Shown: piece by piece, positions 36,968-50,024 of the stretch
Layout: each line of letters starts with the position of its first letter
Numbering within the stretch: the first letter of the stretch is position 1
NCBI RefSeq assembly: GCF_003850245.1
Contig: NZ_CP031015.1
Location: 124,001 to 188,000, forward strand
Origin: Microbacterium sp. ABRD28
GTDB lineage: Bacteria; Actinomycetota; Actinomycetes; Actinomycetales; Microbacteriaceae
Direction of reading: 5' to 3'
DNA: 64,000 nucleotides
Notes under the pieces: model-generated
The model's database searches: none
The model's input: the letters and a program-made list of their open reading frames with translations, nothing else
Told to the model about the DNA's origin: nothing
Position numbers and translations under genes: made by a program

Positions 36968-38770
36968 GTGAGCGAATCGGCCAACCCCCGCGCCCTCCGC
37001 CAGGCCGGCGTCGTCTTCGCCTGGGTCGTCGCCGCCTTCCTCATCGCGCTGGTCTTCCTCGCCGGCTGGGTGGGGGTGCGCGGGTTCCTCGCCTCCCAGC
37101 ACCTCATCGACGCGCAGGCGACGGCCACCGCGGTGCGCGAAGACCTGACCGACCCGGCGCTCGCGTCCGCGGCGATCGCCGATGTCGCGGCCGACACCGC
37201 CGCCGCCCGTGCTCTCACCTCCGACCCGCTCTGGCAGGTCGCCGAAGCCCTTCCGTGGGCGGGGCCGCAGCTGTCGGCGGTCTCGACCGTCGCGGCCGCC
37301 GTCGACGACGTCGCGGGGTCGGCCCTGGCTCCTCTCGCCGATGTCGCGAGCGGGTTCGACCTCGCCGCCCTCCGTCCCCAGGACGGCAGGATCGATCTGG
37401 CACCGTTCACCGACATCCGAGAGGCCGCCGCCACCGGCGCCGCATCGATCGGCGGCGCAGCCGAGGCGGTCGCCGCGATCGACCGGGCCCCCCTGATCCG
37501 CCCGCTGCGCGAGGCCGTCGACGAGGTCGGCGCCCTCCTCGACGAGACCGAGACCGCCACCGGCGCGCTGACCCGCGCGGCGACCCTGCTGCCGGCGATG
37601 CTCGGCGCCGATGGACCGCGGTCCTACCTCGTGCTGTTCCAGAACAACGCCGAGTGGCGCTCGCTCGGTGGCATCCCGGGCGCGACCGCGCTCGTGCGCA
37701 CGGACGGCGGAGCGATCTCGCTGGCCGAGCAGGCGTCATCCTCCGACTTCCCCCGCTACGACGAATCGGTGCTGCCGCTCGGCTCGGATGTCGAGGGGAT
37801 CTTCTCGGCACGACCCGGACGATTCATCCAGAACGTCACCCAGATCCCCGACTTCGCCGTCTCCGGCGCCCTCGCCCGCGAGATGTGGGCGCGTGAGCGC
37901 GGCGGCGAGCAGGTCGACGGGGTGATCGCGATCGATCCCGTGGCACTGTCGTATCTCCTCGCCGCCACCGGGCCTGTGACCCTCCCCACCGGCGACGTGA
38001 TCACGGCGGAGAACGCGGTGCCGCTGCTGCTGAACGAGGTGTATTTTCGCTACGAGGACCCCGCCGACCAGGACGCCTTCTTCGCCGCCGCGGCGGCCTC
38101 GGTCTTCAGCGCGCTGACGGCGGGCGGCACCGACCCCACCGCGCTCGTGGACGCTCTGACGCGTGCGGGCGACGAGCGACGGCTGCTGCTGTGGAGCGCC
38201 CGCGAGGACGAGCAGACCCTCCTCGACGGCACGTCCCTCGCGGGGCCCCTGCCCGAGACCGACGACGACATCGCCCGGTTCGGGGTCTACCTCAACGACG
38301 GCACGGGCTCGAAGATGGACTATTACGTCAGCGCGACTCCCACCCTCACCTGGGACTCCTGCGTCACCGGGGGCTCCGCTGCCTCGCCCACGGCGTCGGG
38401 CACGGCCACCCTCACCGTCACGCTGACCAACAACGCGCCCGCCGACGCGGCCACCTCGCTCCCCCGCTACATCACCGGCGGCGGCGCGTTCGACGTCGAT
38501 CCCGGCATCGCGCGGACCGTCGGCTACGTGTACCTGCCCGAGGGCTTCGAGCTGCAGGATGCCACCATCACCGGCGACGTCGGATTCGGCGGCGGCACCC
38601 ACGACGGGCGGCGGGTGCTGAGCTTCGCCGTCGACGTGGCACCCGGGGCATCGGCGACGGCGACGGTCACGGTCACCGCCCCGGAGGGCTCGGCTCCGCA
38701 ACTGGAGCTGGTGTCAACCCCCACGCTGGTTTCGCCTCCCGACCTCGTCGCCGTCTGCGAGCCCGCCTAG
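36968..38770 (+). CDS. DUF4012 envelope protein
   Basis: The 600-residue protein has one N-terminal transmembrane helix (about 15-37, VVFAWVVAAFLIALVFLAGW) and an extracytoplasmic DUF4012 domain: DGPRSYLVLFQNNAEWRSLGGIPGATALV (hallmark), TQIPDFAVSGALAREMW, DGVIAIDPVALSYLLAATGPVTL in pieces. It ends with about 120 residues of beta-sandwich-like sequence, and has no sorting signal. DUF4012 genes accompany polysaccharide biosynthesis genes in actinobacteria; function is unproven. GTG 36968 follows GGGTGATCG. A small exported-protein gene follows nine bases later. Confidence 0.85.
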   Translation: MSESANPRALRQAGVVFAWVVAAFLIALVFLAGWVGVRGFLASQHLIDAQATATAVREDLTDPALASAAIADVAADTAAARALTSDPLWQVAEALPWAGPQLSAVSTVAAAVDDVAGSALAPLADVASGFDLAALRPQDGRIDLAPFTDIREAAATGAASIGGAAEAVAAIDRAPLIRPLREAVDEVGALLDETETATGALTRAATLLPAMLGADGPRSYLVLFQNNAEWRSLGGIPGATALVRTDGGAISLAEQASSSDFPRYDESVLPLGSDVEGIFSARPGRFIQNVTQIPDFAVSGALAREMWARERGGEQVDGVIAIDPVALSYLLAATGPVTLPTGDVITAENAVPLLLNEVYFRYEDPADQDAFFAAAAASVFSALTAGGTDPTALVDALTRAGDERRLLLWSAREDEQTLLDGTSLAGPLPETDDDIARFGVYLNDGTGSKMDYYVSATPTLTWDSCVTGGSAASPTASGTATLTVTLTNNAPADAATSLPRYITGGGAFDVDPGIARTVGYVYLPEGFELQDATITGDVGFGGGTHDGRRVLSFAVDVAPGASATATVTVTAPEGSAPQLELVSTPTLVSPPDLVAVCEPA

Positions 38771-38779
38771 ACTCGAGGC

Positions 38780-39343
38780 GTGTCCCGCCGCTCCCCCCGC
38801 GTCGCGCTCATCGCCCTCCTGGCGATGGCGGCTGTCGGCGCGCCGGGCGCCGCGCACGCGGCATCCCCTGCCGACGCCTCATCGATCTACCCGCCCTCGG
38901 GGTCGTGCACGACGAGCCCCGCGACCGTCGAGCCGGGCGGCGGCTTCGCCTTCCAGTGCGCGCCGGCGACATTCTCCAGCGCCGAGCAGGTGACCATCAC
39001 CGTCACCGGCGAGAGCGGCGCCGGTGCCGACATCGGCATGGTCCGCTTCGCCATCACCACCGCCAGCGGCACGACGACCTCGGCCGGCGACGGTTCGATC
39101 GCCCCGGTGCGCATCACCCTCCCGCAGAACGCCTCGGGCACGTACAACATCGCCGCGGTGTCGTCGACCTCGGCGGGCAGTACGGCCGCGGTGACGGTGA
39201 CCGCTCCGGACGGGGCGCTCCCGGTCTCGGGGATGGATTCCGGCTCGCTCATCGGCCTCTTCGTCGGTGGCGGTGCGCTGGTGCTGGCCGGCGTCGCCCT
39301 CGCCGTGGCAGCGCTCCTCCGACGCGGGCGCGCGCGCCGATAG
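38780..39343 (+). CDS. Exported beta-sandwich protein with C-terminal anchor
   Basis: This 187-residue protein starts at GTG 38780, ten bases after the DUF4012 stop. A signal peptide (VALIALLAMAAVGAPGAAHA) is followed by a beta-rich domain of about 100 residues (TSPATVEPGGGFAFQC, two Cys likely in a disulfide) and a C-terminal helix (about 155-178) with a basic tail, but no LPxTG. It resembles surface proteins with Ig-like domains. It belongs to the DUF4012-GT4 unit. Function unknown. Confidence 0.75.
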   Translation: MSRRSPRVALIALLAMAAVGAPGAAHAASPADASSIYPPSGSCTTSPATVEPGGGFAFQCAPATFSSAEQVTITVTGESGAGADIGMVRFAITTASGTTTSAGDGSIAPVRITLPQNASGTYNIAAVSSTSAGSTAAVTVTAPDGALPVSGMDSGSLIGLFVGGGALVLAGVALAVAALLRRGRARR

Positions 39344-39357
39344 GGTCGGGACCCTCG

Positions 39358-40842
39358 GTGCTCACCGCCCCTCTCCCGACCGGTCGGCACTTCGCCGTGA
39401 CCTGGTCGATCCCGGACGACTTCGGGGGGATGACCGGCGCCCTCCTCCATCGTTCCCGGGGCTTCCGACGCGAGGCCGGCGTCGCCGTGACGGTCCTCAC
39501 CCTGGATGACCGCATCGACTACGCCGACGTCGCGTCGCGCCTCCGGGACGCGGGGGAGCTGATCGACGGGGTGTCGCTGCTGAACCTCTACGACTGGCTC
39601 CGCACCCATCCCCTCCCCGGCGAGCGGGGATCCGGCGCTCGTCATCCCTTCCGTCCCCTCCGCCCGGACGACCCCGACGTCGTCGGCCTCGAGCATGACG
39701 GCAGGGTGTTGCGCCGAGAACGGCGGGGCCCAGGCGGCGAGATACTGCAGGTCGACCACTACCGCCAGGACGGATCGCTCGTCGTCTCCGATCGACGTGA
39801 CCTCGACAGACGCGGCGGGTCGGCCAAGCGATCGGTCGTGGTCTGCGATCAGCGCGGTCAGCCGCATCGCTCCTGGTCCCACATCTCAGGGCTCTACGCG
39901 GCATGGATCGACGCCCTCGTCGCCGGATCGAGGGCGTGGCTCGTCATCGACAGCAAGACCGCGGCCCGGAGCCTGCTCGGCTACCGCAGACGCGGGACGG
40001 TCGTCGTGCACGTCGTACACGGCGCGCACGTGTCGTCCTCGCCAGGTTCCGACGTGATTCCGTCACGTCGGAAGGTGTTCTCACGACTGGACGCGTTCGA
40101 TGCCGTGGTCTTCCTCACCCGTCGACAGCGCGACCACGCCGCGCGGCTGACCGCCCACCGCGGCCGGCTGGTGACCATTCCGCTCGGGATCACCCTCCCC
40201 CCTTCGAACCCCCCTGCCGAAAGCGAACGAGCGGGAGCGGTGGTGCTCGCCCGGCTGTCCGCCCTGAAACGGGTGGACCACGCGATCGCGGCGATCGAGC
40301 GGGTCAATGCCGTCGTCACACCGCCCCTGACCCTCGACATCTGGGGCGACGGCTCACGCCGCGCCGCCCTGATGCGAAGGATCGACGGCGACCCGGTGCT
40401 CACCCTGCATCATCATGATCCGGCCGCCAGAGGCGTGCTGCGAGAGGCCTCCGTCCTCCTCGTGACGAGCCGGTCCGAAGGATTCGGATTGGCGATCCTC
40501 GAGGCCATGGCGGCGGGATGCATCCCCGTCGCCTACGACGTTCCCTATGGCCCCGGGGAGATCATCCGGCACGGACGGAACGGGATGCTGGTGGCGGACG
40601 GCGATGTCGATGCCTTGGCCGACGCCGTCCGCAGCGTGATCGCGCAACCCCCGGCCGCACGCGACGCCCAACGCCGCGCGGCTCGCGAACGGGCGGCGCA
40701 GTTCTCCGACGATCGCGTGACCCGGCTGTGGGGACGGGCACTGCGGCGCGCGCGACGTCGCGGCATGTCGCGACGCACGGTCGAGGGCGTGACCTGGCGC
40801 GCACGCCGCTGGGCGCGCGTGCTGACTCGCCGGCGCCGATAG
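39358..40842 (+). CDS. GT4-fold glycosyltransferase
   Basis: GTG 39358 gives 494 residues. The N-terminal half resembles poly(glycerol-phosphate)/surface glycan glycosyltransferases (HVVHGAHVSSSPGSDVI, donor-side Ala/Arg patches); the C-terminal Rossmann domain holds the GT4 retaining signature LVTSRSEGFGLAILEAMAAGCIPVAYDVPYGP (E-x7-E motif). A tail rich in Arg (RRARRRGMSRR) may sit on the membrane. It probably transfers sugar to an envelope polymer. The longer upstream frame belongs to other frames of DUF4012 and is not used. Confidence 0.85.
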   Translation: MLTAPLPTGRHFAVTWSIPDDFGGMTGALLHRSRGFRREAGVAVTVLTLDDRIDYADVASRLRDAGELIDGVSLLNLYDWLRTHPLPGERGSGARHPFRPLRPDDPDVVGLEHDGRVLRRERRGPGGEILQVDHYRQDGSLVVSDRRDLDRRGGSAKRSVVVCDQRGQPHRSWSHISGLYAAWIDALVAGSRAWLVIDSKTAARSLLGYRRRGTVVVHVVHGAHVSSSPGSDVIPSRRKVFSRLDAFDAVVFLTRRQRDHAARLTAHRGRLVTIPLGITLPPSNPPAESERAGAVVLARLSALKRVDHAIAAIERVNAVVTPPLTLDIWGDGSRRAALMRRIDGDPVLTLHHHDPAARGVLREASVLLVTSRSEGFGLAILEAMAAGCIPVAYDVPYGPGEIIRHGRNGMLVADGDVDALADAVRSVIAQPPAARDAQRRAARERAAQFSDDRVTRLWGRALRRARRRGMSRRTVEGVTWRARRWARVLTRRRR

Positions 40843-40852
40843 CATCGCTCTC

Positions 40853-41878
40853 GTGGCCACTGCCCCCGCACCCGTGCGTCGTCGCCGCCGCGGGTTGCCG
40901 CGGTGGCTCATCATCGCGTTCGTCGTGCTGGCCGCCTCGGGGCTGCTGGCCATCCTCGCGGCGATCGGCTGGGTCGCCACCTGGGGGTTCCAGATGCTCA
41001 GCGCCCGTCCCCCCGCCCTCGGCACGACGATCGTCGTGCCCGACGAGTCGAAGGCGGCCAAGGCCCTTGCCGCCGAAGATCCCGGCACCGACGCGTACGC
41101 CGCGACGGAGTACCTCGCCGCACAGCCCACCGCGTACTGGCTCACCCCCGAGGAAGACCCGATCGGCGAGGTGTTCGGCCGCATGACGCACCTCGCCGAG
41201 GAGGCGCGCGCTCAGGACGCCTCGATCGCCGTCGTGGTCTACGGCCTTCCCGGACGAGACTGCGGCAACTTCTCCGCCGGGGGCTTGGACGAACCCGACT
41301 ACGTCACGTGGACCGAGGAGATCGCCGCGGGCCTGCGCGCGGCGGGCGACCTGCAGAAGATCGTCGTCCTCGAGCCCGACAGCCTGGCCCTCGCCCCCGA
41401 GTGCGGGAACGTCGCCGAGCGGGTCGCGCAGCTGCGCGGGGCCATCGATCGCCTCGCGGGCCCGAACACCTGGATCTACGTCGACGGCGGCCATTCCACC
41501 TGGCTTCCGCCTGAGGAGATGGCCGGCCTCATCTCGCAGCTCGATCGCACCGGCAGCATCCGGGGATTCGCCACCAACGTCTCCAACTACAACCACGCCA
41601 CCGAGGAGTTCGCCTACGCCCGGCAGCTGTCGGGTCTGCTCGGCGGCGCGAAGGCCGTCGTCGACACGTCGCGCAGCGGCGCCGGTTCCAACGGCGAATG
41701 GTGCAACCCCCGCGGCCGCCTCATCGGCGAGCCCGGCGGCACCCTCGCCGACGACGTGGTGGACACCAACCTCTGGATCAAGCCTCCCGGCGAGTCCGAC
41801 GGCGAATGCAACGGCGGCCCGGCCGCGGGGGTGTGGTGGCCGAAGGCCGCCATCGAACTGACCCGCGAGGTGGAGTGA
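40853..41878 (+). CDS. Membrane-anchored GH6 beta-1,4-glucanase-like protein
   Basis: GTG 40853 gives 341 residues: basic N-terminus, one helix (about 17-45) and a GH6 domain. Catalytic signatures are VVYGLPGRDCGN (Asp136) and VVLEPDSLA (Asp176, proton donor), with DTSRSGAGSNGEWCNPRGR and a final LWIKPPGESDGEC. GH6 enzymes cleave beta-1,4-glucan by inversion. The anchored form suggests action on a nascent or surface glucan rather than free secreted cellulase. Streptomyces has a comparable GH6 (CslZ) next to its cellulose-synthase-like cslA; here a GT2 lies 1.2 kb away. Confidence 0.88.
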   Translation: MATAPAPVRRRRRGLPRWLIIAFVVLAASGLLAILAAIGWVATWGFQMLSARPPALGTTIVVPDESKAAKALAAEDPGTDAYAATEYLAAQPTAYWLTPEEDPIGEVFGRMTHLAEEARAQDASIAVVVYGLPGRDCGNFSAGGLDEPDYVTWTEEIAAGLRAAGDLQKIVVLEPDSLALAPECGNVAERVAQLRGAIDRLAGPNTWIYVDGGHSTWLPPEEMAGLISQLDRTGSIRGFATNVSNYNHATEEFAYARQLSGLLGGAKAVVDTSRSGAGSNGEWCNPRGRLIGEPGGTLADDVVDTNLWIKPPGESDGECNGGPAAGVWWPKAAIELTREVE

Positions 41879-41911
41879 TCCCAGACCCGGCCGCGGTCGA
41901 TCCGACCCGGG

Positions 41912-42988
41912 TCAGGCGCCGGCGACGAGCTCCGAGGTGAGGCGATAGCCCACGCCGCGCACCGTCTCGATGTACCGGGGGTTGGTGGGGTTGTCGCCGA
42001 GCTTGCGGCGCAGGTTCGTCATGTGCGCCTCGATCGCGCGCTTGTCGGCTTCGCCGACGAAGTACGAGGTGACGTACGACTCTCCCCGGAGGACCAGCGT
42101 CAGGTCGGCCTTGCTGCGGACGCGGCGCTTGGACTCCATGAGGGTCGCCAGCAGGTCGAACTCGGTGCGGGTGAGATCGAGGGTGTCGCCGGCGACCATG
42201 ACGATCCGCGTGTCGGGGTCCAGCTGGAGGTCGCGGTGAGCGAGCACATTCACGCCGGCGAGCTCGCGCGGCCCCTGGTCGGCGGGCACGAGGTCGGTGC
42301 CGGCGTTCGGATCTGCGACGGGGTCGCCCGAGGATGCCGACTGCGCGGCCATGATGATCGGCTCGAGCGGCGATCCCGGACCGGTCTGCGGCGCCGGCTG
42401 CCCGGGGTGTCCGCCCTGTTCGCCGGTGTAACCGGGGAAGGGCATCGCGGGACCGCTCGGCATCTGCGACATCCCGGGCATGCCCTCGTAGGGATACGGG
42501 TAGGGCGCCGGAGCCTGAGGATCGTACGGGCGCTGCGCGATCGGGCGGGCGCCGGGGAAGGATGGACCGACGCTGTCCTGGCGCGGCGCATGAGCGACCT
42601 GCTGGGTGCGGGGACGGCGCAGCAGCGCGTCGATGCGGGCACGCAGCTCGCGCGGGCGGAACGGCTTGACGATGTACTCGTCGGCGCCGGCGCCGAGCCC
42701 GAGCACGACGTCGGCCTCGTCCTCGAGGCCCGTGAGCATGATGATGTAGGTGTCGGACTGCGCGCGGATGCGGCGTGCCGCCTCGAACCCGTCCATGCCG
42801 GGCATGTTGACATCGAGCGTGGTGATCAGCGGCTGGTAGGACACCACCGCGCGGACCCCGTCGATCCCGTTGCCGACCGAGACCGTCGAGAACCCCGCCG
42901 CCTCGAGCACCTCGACGAGGAGGTGACGGATGTCGGGATCGTCTTCGACGATGACGGCCGTCCGCAGAGCCATCGAGGGGTCGCTCAT
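41912..42988 (-). CDS. OmpR-type response regulator with long Pro-rich linker
   Basis: The 358-residue protein has a receiver domain at about 9-125 (Glu15-Asp16-Asp17 pocket, phosphoacceptor Asp59 in TLDVNMPGMDG, Thr86 and Lys108 in IVKPFRPREL) and a C-terminal winged helix (about 260-355: FDLLATLMESKRRVRSKADL, NPRYIETVRGVGYRL). Between them is an unusually long Pro/Gly/Ala-rich linker of about 130 residues (QRPYDPQAPAPYPYPYEG). ATG 42988 follows GGGAG. It probably partners the histidine kinase at 47534-49216 and binds CTTG repeats with 11-base spacing; both links are inference. Confidence 0.9.
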   Translation of the reverse strand: MSDPSMALRTAVIVEDDPDIRHLLVEVLEAAGFSTVSVGNGIDGVRAVVSYQPLITTLDVNMPGMDGFEAARRIRAQSDTYIIMLTGLEDEADVVLGLGAGADEYIVKPFRPRELRARIDALLRRPRTQQVAHAPRQDSVGPSFPGARPIAQRPYDPQAPAPYPYPYEGMPGMSQMPSGPAMPFPGYTGEQGGHPGQPAPQTGPGSPLEPIIMAAQSASSGDPVADPNAGTDLVPADQGPRELAGVNVLAHRDLQLDPDTRIVMVAGDTLDLTRTEFDLLATLMESKRRVRSKADLTLVLRGESYVTSYFVGEADKRAIEAHMTNLRRKLGDNPTNPRYIETVRGVGYRLTSELVAGA

Positions 42989-43110
42989 CGGCGGTTGCTC
43001 CCAAAAGTCGAAGAAGGGCGAAGGTGCCACGGCGGTCCGCCGTGCGTAAGCGCTGTCCACGGTCATGCTACACATCTCCCGTCCTGCGAGGCCGTCACGG
43101 CCGCTCGAGG

Positions 43111-44589
43111 TCAGACCTTGTATCCCTGGTAGCGGCGGATGAGCTTGAAGAACATCAGCAGCGTCTGGAGCACCGTGACGACGCCGACGATGGGCCACCC
43201 GATCCACAGGATGGTGGACTGCACCATGGGTCCGAGCATGGTCCAGATGACCGCCATGGCCACCAGCACCGCGACCAGGAGAACCAGCGGGAGCCAGTGG
43301 GCGCTTCCGCCGCCCTTCTCGGCCTTGGCCTGCATCGCCCAGTTGTCGACCTTCTTGCGCGAGAGGAACCGCGTCCACGACCGCAGGAAGTGGCTGAGGC
43401 GGATCCACATGAAGATCTCGGCGGGGAACATCAGGCCCGCGAACAGCAGGTCGCGCGAGTTGTGGCTCTTCATGGTGCGCGCGATCCGCAGGTTCAGCAG
43501 CGTCGCCACGACCGGCGGGATCAGCCACCACGGCGAGAAGATGAACGCGCCGATCGAGAGTGACCCGGCGAGGAGGATGAGGAAGGCGACGCGCACGAAG
43601 AGGTTCGTCAGCATGCCGAAGTTCTCGAACCACCGCAGCCGCAGGTTCGGGTGCAGGGGCTGTCCCTTGGTGTCGCCCCGCTGCCCCGGCCACATCAGCT
43701 CGATGGCGCCGTACGTCCACTTCACCTGCTGGGCGTCGTAACCCTTCAGCGTGGTCATGCCACCGACATCCGCACGGGCATAGGGGCTGATCTTGGTGAG
43801 GTACCCGGCGCTCTTGATCTGCAGCGACAGCAGCGAGTCCTCCACCTCGCTGTCGCGCACCCACGGCGTGGACTGGTGGTTCTGGCGCATGACGTCGCGG
43901 AGGGCGTTGGTGGAGAAGATCGAGAACTGCCCGCCCAGCACCGCCATGTTGCGTCCGCGCAGCAGGTTCTGCAGGTTGAACGCCGCGAACTGCGTGCGCT
44001 GACCGGCGATGAGGAACTTGCCGACGAGACCCTTGATCGGCCGGTCGTCGATGGAGTAGATGGCCGAGATGCCGCCGATGCGCGAGTCCGAGACCGCCTC
44101 GGTCTCGAGGAACTCGACAGCCTTCGGATCGGCCATGGTGTCGCCGTCGACGCCCAGGAGGTAGTCGTAGCCCTCGACCAGCGAGTAGCCGTAGTTGAGC
44201 GCCCCGACCTTCTTGTCGGGGTTCTTGCCGATGTCGTGGACGAAGACCTCGGTGAACTGCTCACCCAGGTCGTTGGTGATCTGGTGTGGGCCGGCGAACT
44301 CCGAGGCGACCTTGACGGTGGCGTCGGAGGAGTTGTTGACCACGACGTGGATGACGTCGGGCACCCGGGTCTGACCGAGGAGGGACTCGATGACCCCGGC
44401 GATCGACTCCTCCTCGTTGTAGGCGGGGATGATGCAGCCGATCGTGGAGCGGTGCCCGGTGAGGTTCTCCAGCACCGAGGAGAAGTCGTCGGCGAACCCG
44501 GGCTCCAGCGGCACATCGACCGGGGGACGGGGCACGGCCGACATGGGCGCGGTGCGGGGAAGGGCGACGGGGGAGTTCTGCTCGGTCAT
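43111..44589 (-). CDS. Processive-type GT2 glycosyltransferase, membrane
   Basis: The 492-residue protein has a cytoplasmic GT2 domain and about five helices at 331-480. Signatures: CIIPAYNEE (52-60), LGVDGDTM (DxD, 148-150), VEDSLLSL (acid-base Asp, 249-251) and QQVKW (287-291), where processive synthases have QxxRW. The acceptor-channel helices follow. Such enzymes make beta-linked glucan, chitin-like or hyaluronan-type polymers. No PilZ domain is present, so it is not a classic BcsA. It is preceded by three CTTG repeats and lies by the GH6 gene. Confidence 0.88.
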   Translation of the reverse strand: MTEQNSPVALPRTAPMSAVPRPPVDVPLEPGFADDFSSVLENLTGHRSTIGCIIPAYNEEESIAGVIESLLGQTRVPDVIHVVVNNSSDATVKVASEFAGPHQITNDLGEQFTEVFVHDIGKNPDKKVGALNYGYSLVEGYDYLLGVDGDTMADPKAVEFLETEAVSDSRIGGISAIYSIDDRPIKGLVGKFLIAGQRTQFAAFNLQNLLRGRNMAVLGGQFSIFSTNALRDVMRQNHQSTPWVRDSEVEDSLLSLQIKSAGYLTKISPYARADVGGMTTLKGYDAQQVKWTYGAIELMWPGQRGDTKGQPLHPNLRLRWFENFGMLTNLFVRVAFLILLAGSLSIGAFIFSPWWLIPPVVATLLNLRIARTMKSHNSRDLLFAGLMFPAEIFMWIRLSHFLRSWTRFLSRKKVDNWAMQAKAEKGGGSAHWLPLVLLVAVLVAMAVIWTMLGPMVQSTILWIGWPIVGVVTVLQTLLMFFKLIRRYQGYKV

Positions 44590-44692
44590 CGTGACATCCT
44601 GTGTCGTTCAGAGCGGCCTGCTTCTGCCGGGTGGCGTCCTGCCGCTGAGACCACAGTGCCCGCCCGACCGCGACATCAGGCCGAGGTCTCAC

Positions 44693-44719
44693 CAAGCGCC
44701 CCGCAAGGTTGCCTCAAGG
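44693..44719 (-). promoter_or_regulatory. Three direct repeats with 11-base period upstream of the GT2 gene
   Basis: On the minus strand the core CTTG occurs three times, at 44715-44719, 44704-44708 and 44693-44697 (as CAAGG, CAAGG, CAAGC on the plus strand), each start 11 bases apart. The reading is CCTTGAGG, CCTTGCGG, GCTTGG. Tandem 11-base direct repeats are typical of OmpR/PhoB-class regulator sites. They lie 104-130 bases before the GT2 start, overlapping the last codons of the lipoprotein gene. A matching set is at 45606-45645. Confidence 0.5.
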
Positions 44720-45460
44720 CTGGGTGGGGGGACCCGCCACCGCGGCGGAGCCGTCGGGGTAGATGGCGACCGGAAGGTACTGGTAGACCGTCTGCTGCGA
44801 GAAGGAGTTCTCGTCGTTGGCGTTGCCCTCGACCCAGACGGTGAGGGCGAACTCCAGCGTGATGCCGTAGGTGTCGGCGGGGAGCTGGCTGATCGTCGTC
44901 TCGGGGACGAGGAGGCCGCCCTGGAAGCTGTTGAGCAGCAGGCCGCGGTCCGAGCGCAGGGTGTCCGTCGGAACGAGCGTGCGGGGGTCGGCGCTGAACT
45001 GGAAGGGACTCTGCACCTGACCGCTCGTCTGAGCGGTCTGGGAGGTCACCGAGACCGAGGAGAGGTAGACGCGACGCTTGTCGGTGAGCACGGCCTTCTC
45101 ATCCACGCGGTGATCGTGGACGTTCACGGCGAAGCCGAGCGTCTTCGCTCGTGTCGGGGTCCACTCCTGCGTGCGCTTCGGGTCGGCGGCCCACACATCC
45201 AGGCGCACTTCGAGCTGATCGGCCACCTCGGTGGACAGCGCGACCGAGCCGTCGTAGGTGAACTGCGAGTCGAAGTCCATCGACGGCGAGGCGAGCGGTG
45301 TCGGAGTCGCCGCCGCGGCCGGTGCGCCCGCGGATTGCTGGAACTGGTTGAACGCATCGGCGACCTGGGCGCACCCCGTCATCGCCACGGCGAGCGCGCC
45401 GGCGACGGCGACGACGAGGAGTCGCCGGGGGCGGCGGGTACGGGGGGCTGAGATACGCAC
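44714..45460 (-). CDS. Putative lipoprotein A of the GT2 cluster
   Basis: GTG 45460 gives 248 residues. The signal peptide ends in a lipobox (AVAMTGCAQ), so it is probably lipid-anchored outside the membrane. The mature part is beta-rich: TEVADQLEVRLDVW, RRVYLSSVSVTSQT, then LPADTYGITLEFALTVWVEG and VYQYLPVAI near the end. These blocks match lipoprotein B at 45722 in order, so the two are paralogues. It is encoded directly upstream of the GT2 gene and probably co-transcribed; a role in polymer handling is a guess. Confidence 0.75.
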   Translation of the reverse strand: MRISAPRTRRPRRLLVVAVAGALAVAMTGCAQVADAFNQFQQSAGAPAAAATPTPLASPSMDFDSQFTYDGSVALSTEVADQLEVRLDVWAADPKRTQEWTPTRAKTLGFAVNVHDHRVDEKAVLTDKRRVYLSSVSVTSQTAQTSGQVQSPFQFSADPRTLVPTDTLRSDRGLLLNSFQGGLLVPETTISQLPADTYGITLEFALTVWVEGNANDENSFSQQTVYQYLPVAIYPDGSAAVAGPPTQP

Positions 45461-45605
45461 GGCGGGACTCCTGACGGGCCGGAGGTGACGGGGTGGGGGC
45501 CGGTCGATTCCGCGAACTGTGGGCACACCGCCCGGTTCGGGTTCGAGCGGTCTGCGGAAGCAACCGGTCCCACCCCTCGCCGGTTACACAATCACGCCGA
45601 TCGGC

Positions 45606-45645
45606 GATCTTGAGGATCTTGAGGTGATCTTGCGTCAGCCTTGCG
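45606..45645 (+). promoter_or_regulatory. Four CTTG direct repeats upstream of lipoprotein B
   Basis: GATCTTGAG occurs at 45606-45614 and 45615-45623, then GATCTTGCG at 45626-45634 and CCTTGCG at 45639-45645. CTTG starts fall at 45609, 45618, 45629 and 45640 (spacing 9, 11, 11). The last three resemble the 11-base-spaced set at 44693-44719. The site is 77-116 bases before ATG 45722. It fits an OmpR-class activator or repressor; the local response regulator is the obvious candidate. Confidence 0.5.
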
Positions 45646-45721
45646 CTGGGAGGTCCGTAGACTGACGCCACTGTCTTCCCCGCCGGAAGGCTTTCGCACT
45701 CATCCGCCTCCGGGAGGTTCC

Positions 45722-46378
45722 ATGGGCACCCATCGTCGTGCCGCCGCGGGCGCTGCGGGAATCGCCTTCACCCTGTCGCTCGGTCTCGTCCTGACCGGCT
45801 GCGGGCCCGCGCCCTGGGACTTCGGCGCCGAGCCGACTCCCTCCGCCTCCACCAGCTCGACCCCGACCGAGGCCCCCACGCCGGTGCCCAACGACCTCTC
45901 CAGCGGGTCGACCGCCCGCGAGCTCGTCGCGGGCGCGGTCGCCGCGTCGGTGGATTACTGGTCGACGCTGTCGATGGATCGGTGGACCGCCGAGGCTCTC
46001 AAGCCCGTCAACCTGTCGATGACCACGACCGTCACTCCCGACGACGGCCAGAAGGTCTATCTCCAGCGTGCGGTCATGGTGGCGGTGCCGCAGGGACCGG
46101 ATGGCGCGATGGCGCCGTTGGAGGCCCAGGTCGACCAGTCCTCGGTCGCCCCGGGGTATCTGGTGCTCTCGCCGTACAGCTACTCGCAGACGTTCAACGT
46201 GGGATCGGTGCCCGCCGATGCGACGCACGTCCAGCTGCAGTTCAGTTACGACTTCCTCGTGCAGACCACCCCCACCTCGAGCGAGTTCGCCAAGCAGACC
46301 GCGAGCGACACCGTCACGGTGGCGATCGCCGCGGCGCCGGACTCCGCCGACGACGCCGGGTCGGAGTCGGACGGCTGA
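45722..46378 (+). CDS. Putative lipoprotein B of the GT2 cluster
   Basis: ATG 45722 has GGGAGG just upstream and gives 218 residues. Lipobox LVLTGCGP marks a lipid-modified Cys. After a Ser/Thr/Pro linker the mature domain has WSTLSMDRWTAEALKPV, KVYLQRAVMVAVPQG and VPADATHVQLQFSYDFLVQ blocks that parallel lipoprotein A, so both come from one ancestor. It is divergent from gene A across a 261-base gap and has its own CTTG repeats. Function unknown. Confidence 0.75.
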   Translation: MGTHRRAAAGAAGIAFTLSLGLVLTGCGPAPWDFGAEPTPSASTSSTPTEAPTPVPNDLSSGSTARELVAGAVAASVDYWSTLSMDRWTAEALKPVNLSMTTTVTPDDGQKVYLQRAVMVAVPQGPDGAMAPLEAQVDQSSVAPGYLVLSPYSYSQTFNVGSVPADATHVQLQFSYDFLVQTTPTSSEFAKQTASDTVTVAIAAAPDSADDAGSESDG

Positions 46379-46391
46379 GACGTCTCCGACG

Positions 46392-47537
46392 TCAGACGCC
46401 GACCCGCTCCCACCGGTCGCCGCCGGCGCGGCTCGCCGTTTCGGCGGCTGCCTCGGCGCGGTCCAGGAGCGCTTCGACATCGCCCTCGGCGGCGCTGTCG
46501 GGGTCCACCGCGACCCAGCCGACGCTGGCGGAGACCTGGATCTCCATGCCGCCGGCGTTCTCCATCCGCCCGACCCGCCCGAGCGCGCCGCGCAGAGCGG
46601 CGCGCAGCACCGGCTCGGGGCGGGAGACGAGCACCACCACCGTGCCCGGACGCCGTTCGGCGACGTCGGCGTCGGCGGGGAGGTCGACCAGGATCTCCTG
46701 CGCGAAACTCGTGCAGACCGCGTCGAATCCGGCCACGCCCACCGCATCCCGCACGTCGGCCTCGTCATCGAGCCGGAAGACCAGGAGCGCCCAGGAGCGC
46801 TCCCCCCGCCGGGCGGCGCGGGCGATGCGGTCGCGGCATCCCGAGGCGAACTCCTCCCACGGGGTGCGCTCCCCGGGACCGACCACCCGTTCACGGCGGG
46901 TGGCGAACCCCACCAGCGACACCAGTGCGCACACCATGTACACGATGAACCCGAGCTGGTTGACGGAGCGGACGAACTGCAGATCATCGCCGCTGGACGC
47001 GGGGAAGACGAAGCCTGCGATGGCGACGAAGGCGGCCAGCGCGGAGTTCAGCACCGAGATCACCACGAGGGGGTAGAGCACCGCGTCGCCGCGGTCGGGG
47101 AGACGCAGCCACTCGACCAGGAGGAGGAAGGCGAAGACCGCTGAGAGGAAGAACAGGATGCGGAAGGCGACGCTGTAGGCCTCGGTGGCCCCGGCCGCGA
47201 CCAGGACGATCGGGCTGAGGACCGACAGCAGCGCCGCCAGCCACCACCGCGACGGCGCGCCCCGCAGCGTGCGGAAGCCCGCCCAGAAGAACCCCGGCGC
47301 GCCCAGGAGAGCGCCCAACGCCACCCGGCGCATCGTCTCGGAGTCGACGGTCTCGGCGAGAACGACGCCCCATGAGGATGTCATCGCCACAAGGAACGCG
47401 ATCGACCACAGCAGCGTCGAGCGATGCGGTCGATCCAGGAACGCCACCCCGATCATGATGACGACACCGAGCGTCGCGACCGTGGCCTGCGCCAGCGCGA
47501 GATTCGGCCCGCTGAACGAGGGGATGCCGTCGATCAT
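46392..47537 (-). CDS. Membrane protein with degenerate GGDEF domain
   Basis: The 381-residue protein has about seven helices in the first 215 residues, then a cyclase-like domain (about 240-375). Where active diguanylate cyclases carry GG[DE]EF in an R-x-GGDEF-x-x-L strand, this reads ERRPGTVVVLV, so the metal and GTP-binding motif is gone. The ending helix after VDPDSAAEGDVEALLDRAEAAAE is typical of GGDEF domains. It could sense or bind a ligand rather than make c-di-GMP. It overlaps the histidine kinase gene by four bases (ATGA), so it is made with it. Confidence 0.75.
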   Translation of the reverse strand: MIDGIPSFSGPNLALAQATVATLGVVIMIGVAFLDRPHRSTLLWSIAFLVAMTSSWGVVLAETVDSETMRRVALGALLGAPGFFWAGFRTLRGAPSRWWLAALLSVLSPIVLVAAGATEAYSVAFRILFFLSAVFAFLLLVEWLRLPDRGDAVLYPLVVISVLNSALAAFVAIAGFVFPASSGDDLQFVRSVNQLGFIVYMVCALVSLVGFATRRERVVGPGERTPWEEFASGCRDRIARAARRGERSWALLVFRLDDEADVRDAVGVAGFDAVCTSFAQEILVDLPADADVAERRPGTVVVLVSRPEPVLRAALRGALGRVGRMENAGGMEIQVSASVGWVAVDPDSAAEGDVEALLDRAEAAAETASRAGGDRWERVGV

Positions 47538-49216
47538 GCGTCGGCCGCCCGGGGCAGGACGACCTGGGCCGTGGTCCCCGCACCGACTTCCGAAGCGAGG
47601 GTGAGGGTTCCGGCATGCGCCTCGACGATGTCGCGGGCGATCCCGAGGCCCAGGCCCGTCCCCTGCGCCGTCTGCCCCGCTTCGGGCGAACGGAAATACG
47701 GCTCGAACACCCGGTCGATCTCGTCGGCCGGGATCCCGATCCCCGAGTCGATCACGTCCACACGCACGACGTAGCCGGCGACGGCCGCCCGCACCGAGAC
47801 CGTCCCCTGGCGAGGCGTGTACTTCACGGCGTTCGTGAGCAGGTTGTCGAAGACCTGGCGAAGGCGGAAGGCGTCGCCCCGCACCGGCAGGACCGGCGGC
47901 AGCTCGGTGTGCAGGGTGATGTTGCGCGCCCGCGCGTTGGCCTGCACCCCGACCAGAGCCGCCTCCAGCACGCTTCGGAGGTCGATCTCATCCGTTCCCC
48001 GTGGCGCGGTGAACGACGATCGAGAGTCGCGGAGGGTCTGTTCGAGCATCGTGAGCATCCGCTCGGCCGAGGCCTCGATGACGGCGAAGTCGTCTCTGCT
48101 GACGGGGTCGACGTCGCGTTCGAGCGCGAGCTCGGCGCGACCGAGGATGACGGTCAGGGGGTTGCGGATCTCGTGGGAGGCCATCGCGACGACCTGATCC
48201 CGCGCGCGCTGCGCCTGCAGCAGCGCGGTGACCTCGCGCGCGACCAGGAGCATGCTGGCCTCACCCTCGCTCCGCGATGCCAGCGGGCTCGCCGACACCG
48301 TCACGGCCCGCCACGCGCCCTCGGCGTCGAGGAGCCAGTAGGTCTCGGGCTCGAAGGCCTCGCCGCGTGCCGCGCGGGCGAACGGGCGCTCGTCGACCGG
48401 CACTTCCGGTCCGTCGATGCCGGTGTGCTCCACCACGGCCGCGTCGGCCAGGCTCTCCTGCTCGCCGAGTCCGTAGAGACCGCGGTAGGCGGCGTTCAGC
48501 GCAAGCAGTTCGCCGGTGGGAGACAGACGCACGATGCCCAGATCGATGCCGTCGATCATCTCGGCGATCCGCCGCTCCTGCGCGGTCGCGCGATCCAGCG
48601 TCGACCGCAGTCGGCGTGCCTGCTGACGCAGCAGCCGCTTGAACGCCCGGGTGCGCCGGGACCCCACGTGCAGGGTGATGCCGATGAAGCTCAGCACGAT
48701 GACGATCAGCACCACGCGGATCGTGGAGTCGGTGCCGGGGCCGAGGCTGGCGACGACGAGGAGGAAGAGGCCGACCGCACCGAGCGCGACGGCGAGGGTG
48801 CGGGCGCCGTAGTGCAGCGCGATCCACACGATGGGGAAGGTCCACAGGAACGCGAACCGCAGGTCGCCCTCGAGGTTGAGCAGCCCGACCGCGAAGAGGT
48901 CGGCGAAGGGCACGATCAGAACCGCCGCGGCCGACAACCGCCCCCACGGCGCGATCATCGTGGCCGCGGTGATCGCCACGAGCAGCAGGATGCCCCCGGT
49001 GAAGGTCCAGCTGGCCAGCTGCCCCGGCTGGATGAACAGCAGCAGGATGACCACGGCGAGAACCGTCGCGCCGAGCACGAGCTGGCTCAACCAGATCGAT
49101 CGGGTTCGGCTGGAGATCGGCGCCGGAGCCAGCACGCGCGTATCCGGAGAGGTCGACCACGTTGCGGACGGCGCGGGGGCGACGTCGACCGTTCGCGACC
49201 TGCCCCCCGCTGACAT
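47534..49216 (-). CDS. Membrane-bound sensor histidine kinase with PAS domain
   Basis: A 560-residue kinase: about six helices (40-185), a PAS domain (about 218-335), dimerisation helix with phospho-His348 in MASHEIRNPLTVI, and HATPase domain with N box FDNLLTNAVKYTP, G1 DSGIGIPADEI, F box VFEPYFR and G2 GTGLGLGI. All kinase boxes look intact. Its signal is probably membrane-linked. It is coupled to the degenerate-GGDEF gene, and the likely partner regulator is 5 kb away at 41912-42988, the only response regulator in view; that pairing is inference. Confidence 0.93.
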   Translation of the reverse strand: MSAGGRSRTVDVAPAPSATWSTSPDTRVLAPAPISSRTRSIWLSQLVLGATVLAVVILLLFIQPGQLASWTFTGGILLLVAITAATMIAPWGRLSAAAVLIVPFADLFAVGLLNLEGDLRFAFLWTFPIVWIALHYGARTLAVALGAVGLFLLVVASLGPGTDSTIRVVLIVIVLSFIGITLHVGSRRTRAFKRLLRQQARRLRSTLDRATAQERRIAEMIDGIDLGIVRLSPTGELLALNAAYRGLYGLGEQESLADAAVVEHTGIDGPEVPVDERPFARAARGEAFEPETYWLLDAEGAWRAVTVSASPLASRSEGEASMLLVAREVTALLQAQRARDQVVAMASHEIRNPLTVILGRAELALERDVDPVSRDDFAVIEASAERMLTMLEQTLRDSRSSFTAPRGTDEIDLRSVLEAALVGVQANARARNITLHTELPPVLPVRGDAFRLRQVFDNLLTNAVKYTPRQGTVSVRAAVAGYVVRVDVIDSGIGIPADEIDRVFEPYFRSPEAGQTAQGTGLGLGIARDIVEAHAGTLTLASEVGAGTTAQVVLPRAADA

Positions 49217-49247
49217 ACGCAGAGTTTAGCCACGGACGCCGAGGCAC

Positions 49248-49949
49248 TCAGCCCGCCGTCGGAACCTCCGCCGGCTGCGCCGCCGTGATGTTCGCCGTCA
49301 CCAGGATCGGCAGGTGATCCGACAGGCCCTGCGGAAGGGTGCGGACCCGATCGATCGTGAATCCGGATGAGGTCACGAAGTCGTAATGGCCGCGGAAGAA
49401 TCGATAGCGGGTGTATGTGCGGGAGTCGCTAAGGCTGAGCTCGTACCCCTGCTCGCGCACCTTCTGCCCGAGGTTCTCCTTGAACACCGGGTAGTTGTAG
49501 TCGCCCACCATCAGCGTCGGAAGGCCCACCCCCAACTGCTCCAGCTCCGACAGCGCCGTGCGGATCTGATGTCGGCGTAGCGAGTTGAGTGCCGTCAGGG
49601 GCGCCGCGTGGAAGGACGCCACGATCAGGTCGGTGCCGTGATCGATGTCGTGCAGCCGCACCCCGAGCATCCGTTCCTCGGCGGGCTTCAGCAGGTGATC
49701 GTGCAGCGACTTCTTCAGCGCCAGGGCCCGCACCTCGACCGCGCGGAACGTGTTGGCGCGGTAGTAGACCGCAAGACCCAGCCGGTTGCGCGAGGTCGCG
49801 TCCGCGAGGCGGAGCCCCGCGATCTCGTCGGGGATGTCGGAGGTGTCGTACTCCTGCAGACACAGGACGTCGGCACCGTGGCGTTCGACGAGCTCGGCCA
49901 GCTCGCCCGCGGCGCGATGCTTGCGCAGGTTGTACGAGATCACTCTCAT
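49248..49949 (-). CDS. Endonuclease/exonuclease/phosphatase-fold protein
   Basis: This 233-residue protein has the EEP fold: MRVISYNLRKHRAAGEL, DVLCLQEYD (catalytic Glu), FHAAPLTALNSL, LMVGDYNYPVF (Asp-x-Asn), and GLSDHLPILV (final Asp-His). Such enzymes cut phosphodiesters in nucleic acids, lipids or small molecules; which applies here is unclear. A signal peptide is absent, so it is cytoplasmic. It reads alone between the histidine kinase and truA. Confidence 0.88.
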   Translation of the reverse strand: MRVISYNLRKHRAAGELAELVERHGADVLCLQEYDTSDIPDEIAGLRLADATSRNRLGLAVYYRANTFRAVEVRALALKKSLHDHLLKPAEERMLGVRLHDIDHGTDLIVASFHAAPLTALNSLRRHQIRTALSELEQLGVGLPTLMVGDYNYPVFKENLGQKVREQGYELSLSDSRTYTRYRFFRGHYDFVTSSGFTIDRVRTLPQGLSDHLPILVTANITAAQPAEVPTAG

Positions 49950-50024
49950 CGACGCCCAGCCTACGGCCGCGACGGGAGACGCGGGCTGACCAGGAGGTGT
50001 CCCATAAGCGATGATCAGGTTTCG

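Follow-up and report, generated by a model that had tools for sequence, protein, structure and literature searches.

Does the group of seven genes between positions 40,853 and 49,216 of the DNA analysed here constitute one system for the synthesis of a surface glycan, and does it belong to a type already known? The window, i.e. the whole stretch of 64,000 nucleotides (C1:124001-188000), is part of the complete 3.27-Mb genome of Microbacterium sp. ABRD28, and a preliminary description of its sequence had reported genes for a GT2 membrane synthase (GT2), two lipoproteins (lip1 and lip2), a GH6 glycanase (GH6), a response regulator, a histidine kinase and a membrane protein with a degenerate GGDEF domain. 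All seven were found where they had been placed (Table 1). The cluster is a real, conserved and regulated glycan system, and it is not a member of the Streptomyces csl type. Judged from the sequences, we consider it, with a probability of about 0.6, a system dedicated to an extracytoplasmic glycan whose linkage is probably beta-1,4.

Gene content and conserved residues

Domain matches, key residues, lipobox cysteines and the profile match between lip1 and lip2 confirmed the seven-gene group as described. For GT2, GH6, regulator and kinase, residues were counted over alignments in which some genomes occupy two rows. In GT2, D148/D150, E250/D251 and Q287 were found in all 114 rows, K290 in 113 and W291 in 111, the DxD, ED and QxxKW-type motifs noted earlier thus being kept in at least 111/114 rows; the C-terminal third of the protein holds three clear hydrophobic segments.

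The PF01341 match of GH6 reached 183.8 bits against a cut-off of 27. Asp136, Asp176, Asp211 and Asp316 were invariant (101/101 rows) and presumably have the catalytic roles known from GH6 enzymology. A single N-terminal hydrophobic segment (residues 20-38) forms the membrane anchor, in agreement with the anchored hydrolase first reported, and no second Pfam domain was detected in the Pfam scan. The closest solved structures were 1uoz (putative cellulase, 5.9e-46), 1up0 (Cel6/CelA1, 8.5e-46) and 1tml (endoglucanase E-2, 2.6e-45), the first two of which we take to be M. tuberculosis proteins. One further GH6 is encoded in the same genome (C1:1029506-1030516, L001), within an open frame of 578 residues, and is unlike the enzyme of the cluster.

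The lipobox cysteine was invariant in the alignments of lip2 (40 rows) and lip1 (29 rows). Comparison of the two profiles by hhalign gave a probability of 96.4 (E 1.3e-9) over a stretch that includes the signal peptides, which upholds the relatedness of the two lipoproteins, and neither matched a Pfam family, in keeping with their designation as new parts. Among the best 1000 Foldseek hits, their structure matches fell in a broad group of beta-sandwich proteins, arrestin-like ones included; no function was drawn from the fold. Based on homologue lengths, lip2 most likely starts at the ATG at 45722 and not at the TTG at 45641 as first listed, while the start of lip1 is most likely 45460 and not 45526. 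Genome G504 carries two lip2-like genes (L193 and L194) outside its GT2 locus, and members of this lipoprotein family thus also occur outside the cluster.

The phospho-acceptor Asp59 of the regulator was present in 101/103 rows, the remaining two being gaps, and His348 of the kinase in 91/91. The residues for phosphotransfer are thus present, and the two proteins may form a pair. The PAS_4 match of the kinase (22 bits) lies slightly under its cut-off of 23.1, and the GGDEF protein scores 19.8 bits against PF00990, for which the cut-off is 23.8. Inspection by eye located a GG[DE]EF motif in 0 of 37 aligned rows of the latter, whose gene overlaps that of the kinase by 4 bp, so that the degenerate GGDEF protein next to the kinase was recovered as well.

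Table 1. Genes and candidate regulator boxes of the cluster (positions within the window)
Feature	Position	Strand	Length (amino acids)	Domain match
GH6 glycanase, membrane-anchored, endoglucanase-like	40853..41878	+	341	PF01341 (E 8.9e-54)
OmpR-type response regulator, long P/Q/G-rich linker	41912..42988	-	358	Response_reg, Trans_reg_C
GT2 membrane synthase, DxD / ED / QQVKW	43111..44589	-	492	PF00535/PF13641/PF13632
Candidate regulator box, three CTTG at 11-bp spacing, 5' of GT2, overlapping lip1 end	44693..44718	-		
Lipoprotein lip1, putative arrestin-like beta-sandwich	44714..45460	-	248	
Candidate regulator box, three CTTG at 11-bp spacing, between divergent lip1 and lip2	45618..45643	+		
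Lipoprotein lip2, putative arrestin-like beta-sandwich	45722..46378	+	218	
Membrane protein with degenerate GGDEF domain, about six hydrophobic segments (hydropathy)	46392..47537	-		PF00990 (below cut-off)
Membrane PAS-like histidine kinase	47534..49216	-	560	HisKA (E 1.2e-14), HATPase_c (E 4.4e-28)

Conservation and joint loss

Gene neighbourhoods were compared in the best 80 of 329 titled GT2 loci, some of which end at contig edges; nearly all are from Microbacterium, with two from Agromyces, one from Plantibacter, three with broader titles and one (L156) titled Stenotrophomonas. A regulator was found in 79 of these loci, lip2 in 75, GH6 in 73, the kinase in 65, the GGDEF protein in 62 and lip1 in 54. 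Regulator and GH6 genes lie within 500 bp of one another in 72/73 loci, and kinase and GGDEF genes are adjacent in 56 of the 60 loci having both. Locus L201 holds a second set of regulator, kinase and GGDEF genes in a row, which supports these three as a working triad. Among the genomes listed, the highest GT2 identity (97%) was shared by Microbacterium kunmingense and Microbacterium sp. AK009.

At E <= 1e-30, GT2 was detected in 39 of 249 Microbacteriaceae genomes (own genome included), representing 19 of 85 genera. Outside the genus, 20 family loci were examined out of 30 genomes with a GT2 of 65-72% identity. Kinase, lipoprotein, GT2, regulator and GH6 occurred together in 17 of them, with differing flanking genes; the exceptions were one locus with no GH6 (L076), one at a contig end (L094) and one with no lipoprotein (L096).

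Within the genus, a full GT2 (78-88% identity) was present in 13 of 34 genomes, and all 13 also carry lip2 (E <= 1e-30) and a GH6 orthologue (E <= 1e-100). Of the 21 genomes without full GT2, G033 alone has a partial lip2 together with the GH6 orthologue. Here lip2 ends at residue 138 with a truncated regulator gene directly after it, and GT2 is gone while GH6 is left. Three other genomes (G012, G017 and G019) have shortened GT2 frames with much of the protein lost; lip2 and the cluster GH6 have gone from these genomes and lip1 is missing from the loci, where regulator, kinase and GGDEF protein are still present. The co-occurrence of GT2, lip2 and GH6 in the 34 genomes gave a Fisher p of 1.5e-8, not corrected for descent. 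This pattern of presence and loss indicates that GT2, lipoprotein and GH6 are kept or lost jointly. Three stages of GT2 decay, accompanied by loss of GH6 and the lipoproteins, and the G033 deletion that joined lip2 to the regulator can be seen in loci L082, L083, L084 and L199.

In a sample of the class, GT2 was found at E <= 1e-60 in 22 of 394 genomes, counting the one studied here; 12 belong to a single other family. The 11 genomes with a match to the lip2 profile all lie within these 22. The 13 loci of this second family (12 genomes) contain GT2 in 13, a regulator in 13, a lipoprotein in 12, GH6 in 11 and a kinase in 5 cases. The closest named relatives of the GT2 of one member (G379) are Nocardioides proteins, and on sequence grounds the family is probably Nocardioidaceae. 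Conservation as a group, which the preliminary description had set as a check, is thus borne out by other genera, by the second family and by joint loss within the genus.

The regulator gene is co-oriented with GT2 in our locus, in L101 and in L102, and has the opposite orientation in 74 of 78 titled loci; the gene at 41912-42988 was therefore probably flipped locally in this lineage.

A candidate regulator box

The pattern CTTG-N7-CTTG has four matches in the 64-kb window, all located 5' of GT2 or lip2, against an expectation of 0.31, and 0 of 100 shuffles reached four; an extra CTTG lies 9 bp upstream of the box between lip1 and lip2. The spacing was chosen after inspection of these same stretches, which makes the window figure flattering and the relatives the better test. 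Of 79 titled loci, 49 have the pattern upstream of GT2, and no other spacing occurred more than once. OmpR/PhoB-type regulators have sites spaced by one helical turn.

For the relatives, a longer box pattern, CTTGMGGNNNNCTTGMGG, was used. It was set after 26 upstream stretches of Microbacteriaceae had been viewed, so that counts within this family are no independent test; loci of the second family had not been seen for that purpose. Expectations, estimated from matches at other places in the loci concerned, ranged from 0.000 to 0.007 per 350 bp. Upstream of GT2, the box was found at <=1 mismatch in 46 of 76 Microbacterium loci (0.001 expected per 350 bp), a set that includes the broader-titled L110, L118 and L152; L156 was excluded from both titled-locus counts. 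In other genera it occurred in 5/23 loci at <=1 and 15/23 at <=2 mismatches, and in the second family in 4/13 and 8/13, respectively, with 0.007 expected at <=2. The 11-bp-spaced CTTG direct repeat is thus probably the box of the regulator. Together with the regulator and kinase of the group, this candidate site 5' of GT2 agrees with the two-component control proposed at the outset.

Genome-wide, five sites were found at <=1 mismatch, two of them in the cluster, while the reversed control pattern gave four. The three outside sites are accordingly at chance level, and a wider regulon was not supported.

The synthase and its phage relatives

The preliminary description had compared the combination of GT2 and GH6 with cslA-cslZ of Streptomyces. 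Searched by blastp against three CslA-like proteins, GT2 gave E values of 0.22, 1.3 and 9.9, none significant; these proteins, from three genomes, were labelled CslA-like because they match BcsA and are encoded next to PF09118 and GH6 genes. The hit to E. coli BcsA (E 0.077 over 54 residues) was not significant either, and in the tree CslA and BcsA stand on a branch apart from GT2 (100/99, with a long-branch warning). CslA orthology was rejected on these two grounds, and a relation of the synthase to CslA is not supported; only GH6 resembles its csl counterpart.

Of the characterised GT2s compared, E. coli PgaC was the nearest (23% over 359 residues, E 2e-14) and lies on the same side of the tree. 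This feeds the strongest alternative, which we nevertheless regard as unlikely: that the product is an amino-sugar polymer, resembling poly-N-acetylglucosamine or chitin, and that GH6 acts on the wall or, as reported for CslZ, with a broad range of substrates, and so opens a passage. The best NCBIfam match of GT2 is likewise PgaC/IcaA (TIGR03937, E 1.2e-14), although its 54.1 bits are far below the cut-off of 422.3, and according to passages of PMC9040799 and PMC11022532 CslZ is active on peptidoglycan, cellulose and alpha-chitin. On the other side, no deacetylase domain was found among the ten window proteins scanned, a weak point as the neighbours in other genera are unannotated, and GH6 is nearest to cellulases and endoglucanases. 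PgaC/IcaA further differs from the synthase of the cluster, which carries QQVKW in place of QRLRW and is accompanied by GH6.

Relatives of GT2 were also found in phages. The PHROG 22973 glycosyltransferase profile, of the category 'moron, auxiliary metabolic gene and host takeover', covers residues 50-490 (E 3.8e-49). At E <= 1e-8, 30 of 50,697 phage records matched, including double versions of one phage and weak or PgaC-like ones. The closest relatives found outside the bacterial clade are the GT2s of phages RikSengupta, Cantare, LpeD, Lb338-1, T25 and OE33PA, five of which show 26-31% identity (E 1e-40 to 4e-33) and OE33PA 23% (E 7e-19); DxD, ED and Q..KW are present in the phage relatives. 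Of 37 rows, 27 were used for a tree, the 10 excluded beforehand being BcsA, the three CslA-like proteins and six bacterial-clade members. In this tree the sister group of the bacterial clade consists of the lactobacillus/oenococcus phage and plasmid enzymes (100/99), with three actinophage enzymes next out (98/97). Since branches are long, the exact branching order is unsure. The GT2 of phage Count falls on another branch with other GT2s (86/84), which weakens the idea of a single phage group. By these comparisons, the synthase is closer to phage-carried enzymes than to known bacterial cellulose synthases.

The phage morons share the GT2 branch of the cluster synthase but differ in that the annotation next to them names neither a GH6 nor a two-component gene, many of the neighbours being just 'hypothetical'; in phage T25, phage repressor-type regulators adjoin the GT2 gene. 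Tentatively, the cluster could represent a separate surface-glycan machine of synthase, outer partner and hydrolase, combining a new arrestin-fold lipoprotein family with a GT2 branch that phage morons also use. In that case bacteria and phages would employ the same synthase type to remodel the surface, the bacterium under control of its two-component system and the phage perhaps to alter its host's surface and exclude rivals. Through this link, the moron role would become testable against a bacterial counterpart. That the OE33PA enzyme is the beta-glucan synthase Gtf was considered and could not be established: a passage of PMC6256464 calls it just a glycosyltransferase moron, and the prophage-borne gtf of Oenococcus, covered in passages of PMC4047060, could not be equated with it. 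Passages of PMC7302621 deal with Microbacterium phages.

Plasmid carriage of the cluster was rejected, the sole match among 72,556 plasmid records at E <= 1e-30 being a Lacticaseibacillus plasmid GT2 with 27.7% identity; at E <= 1e-8 there were 11, icaA/pgaC genes among these.

In four of four phages inspected, RikSengupta (L256), Cantare (L258), AWGoat (L262) and Count (L263), a gene directly 3' of GT2 encodes a small protein (about 50 residues) in which LAxTG is accompanied by a hydrophobic segment and a basic tail, resembling a miniature sortase-type signal. Count has this mini-protein despite its GT2 of another branch. Three distant GT2 relatives from one genus (L080, L081 and L098; 31-33%) have no GH6 or lipoprotein matches nearby, and Q..KW was altered in the two that were inspected.

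Comparison with known systems

The Streptomyces cslA-glxA-cslZ system (with lpmP), as presented in passages of PMC9040799 and PMC11022532, resembles the cluster in having a GT2 gene adjoining a GH6 gene, a membrane-tethered GH6 and an extracytoplasmic partner; the same passages describe CslZ as a lipoprotein that works with LpmP in glycan deposition. In contrast, the synthase of the cluster comes from another GT2 branch, lipoproteins stand where csl has a copper oxidase, and a two-component system and box are carried. CslA has PilZ elements, and its complex was most active with cyclic di-GMP (passages of PMC11022532). In the complete Microbacterium genome, PilZ gave 0 matches at E <= 0.001, the same search being positive in 5 of 14 control genomes, and the GlxA-like E-set domain PF09118 gave 0 at E <= 1e-15, with 66 of 325 class genomes positive. 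Both absences had been anticipated in the preliminary description. PF07250 had no match in any genome searched and so says nothing on GlxA. Because GH6 fits but synthase and copper oxidase do not, the cluster is not assigned to csl.

These data also bear on the second alternative, an improbable one, that true cellulose is made by a CslA-type synthase complex in which the lipoproteins replace GlxA. The scheme of synthase, outer partner and GH6 would be the same, and the GH6 of the cluster is 38-40% identical to GH6 proteins adjoining cslA-like genes; the best E values of GT2 to CslA-like proteins and BcsA, as well as the missing PilZ and GlxA-like matches, speak against it. BcsA-BcsB-BcsZ (E. 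coli gene order) has a comparable logic of synthase, outer partner and endoglucanase, but GT2 is without significant BcsA similarity, the hydrolase of the cluster is GH6 and the genome has no PilZ match. No published description of this cluster was found in one open-licence library searched with short term lists, of which the broader led to the Streptomyces csl papers and some others.

Proposed function

In the system favoured here, one dedicated to an extracytoplasmic glycan, the membrane GT2 would build the chain from a nucleotide sugar on the inner side of the membrane and pass it outward. The lipoproteins, predicted beta-sandwich domains on the outer face, may guide or hold the chain as the outer partners of the synthase, and the membrane-anchored GH6 would trim it or open a way through the wall. 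Signals would run from the PAS-like kinase and its GGDEF membrane partner to the OmpR-type regulator; in the partner, the domain without catalytic motif may have a sensing or docking role. By binding the 11-bp-spaced CTTG repeats, the regulator would then activate GT2 and probably, in this genome, also the two divergent lipoprotein genes.

Several observations weigh against this proposal. GH6 is the sole pointer to a beta-1,4 linkage, the synthase being nearer to PgaC than to CslA or BcsA; the beta-glucan-like polymer suggested originally likewise depends on this hint from the hydrolase. Eight of the 21 same-genus genomes that lack full GT2 encode the GGDEF protein, some copies perhaps being paralogues (30-42%), so the sensor pair may have other targets, and only 5 of the 13 second-family stretches contain the kinase. 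At seven distant GT2 loci (31-54%), no GH6 lies in the stretch, a lipoprotein match (28%) was found in one and a two-mismatch box match in one. The loci of families f25, f6 and f57 show no GH6 or regulator match and no box upstream of GT2; f25 has a lipoprotein beside GT2, f6 a weak profile match near it and f57 two lipoprotein copies elsewhere in the genome. Among titled loci, the exact box precedes lip1 in 16/51, the kinase gene in 12/63 and lip2 in 4/75, and it was found in 0/73 before GH6, 0/78 before the regulator and 0/60 before the GGDEF gene. Joint control of all genes is therefore not established; from these counts GT2 would be the main target, with the lipoprotein genes included in some genomes only. 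The shared repeats reported earlier thus hold before GT2 and lip2 in the window and before GT2 across genera, but few of the relatives have them before lip2 and none before GH6.

Very improbable is the last alternative, that the genes are neighbours by chance only, GH6 being a scavenging cellulase and the two-component genes controlling something else: the occurrence of the GGDEF protein without full GT2 and the persistence of regulator, kinase and GGDEF genes in the three genomes with decayed GT2 would fit it, but it was rejected on conservation across loci in changing surroundings and on joint loss, and the boxes before GT2 and the membrane anchor of GH6, which has no second Pfam domain, also oppose it.

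If the proposal is correct, Microbacterium, its relatives and the Nocardioides-like family would possess a switchable surface polymer, made by a synthase outside the characterised cellulose branch and governed by a box defined sharply enough for testing.

Other observations

A reading as a defence system was dismissed, with no PADLOC match at E <= 0.001 save a weak one of PDC-M43B (E 1.3e-6) to the ATPase region of the kinase. No RNA element reached the gathering threshold within 40000-50000. Locus L156, on a contig titled Stenotrophomonas maltophilia P13, carries a Microbacterium cluster, most likely by contamination. Upstream in the window, 36968-39343 encodes a DUF4012 protein and, after it, one that ends in an LPxSG-like sequence, and matches to these two were found near the cluster in 45/80 and 40/80 titled loci, respectively.

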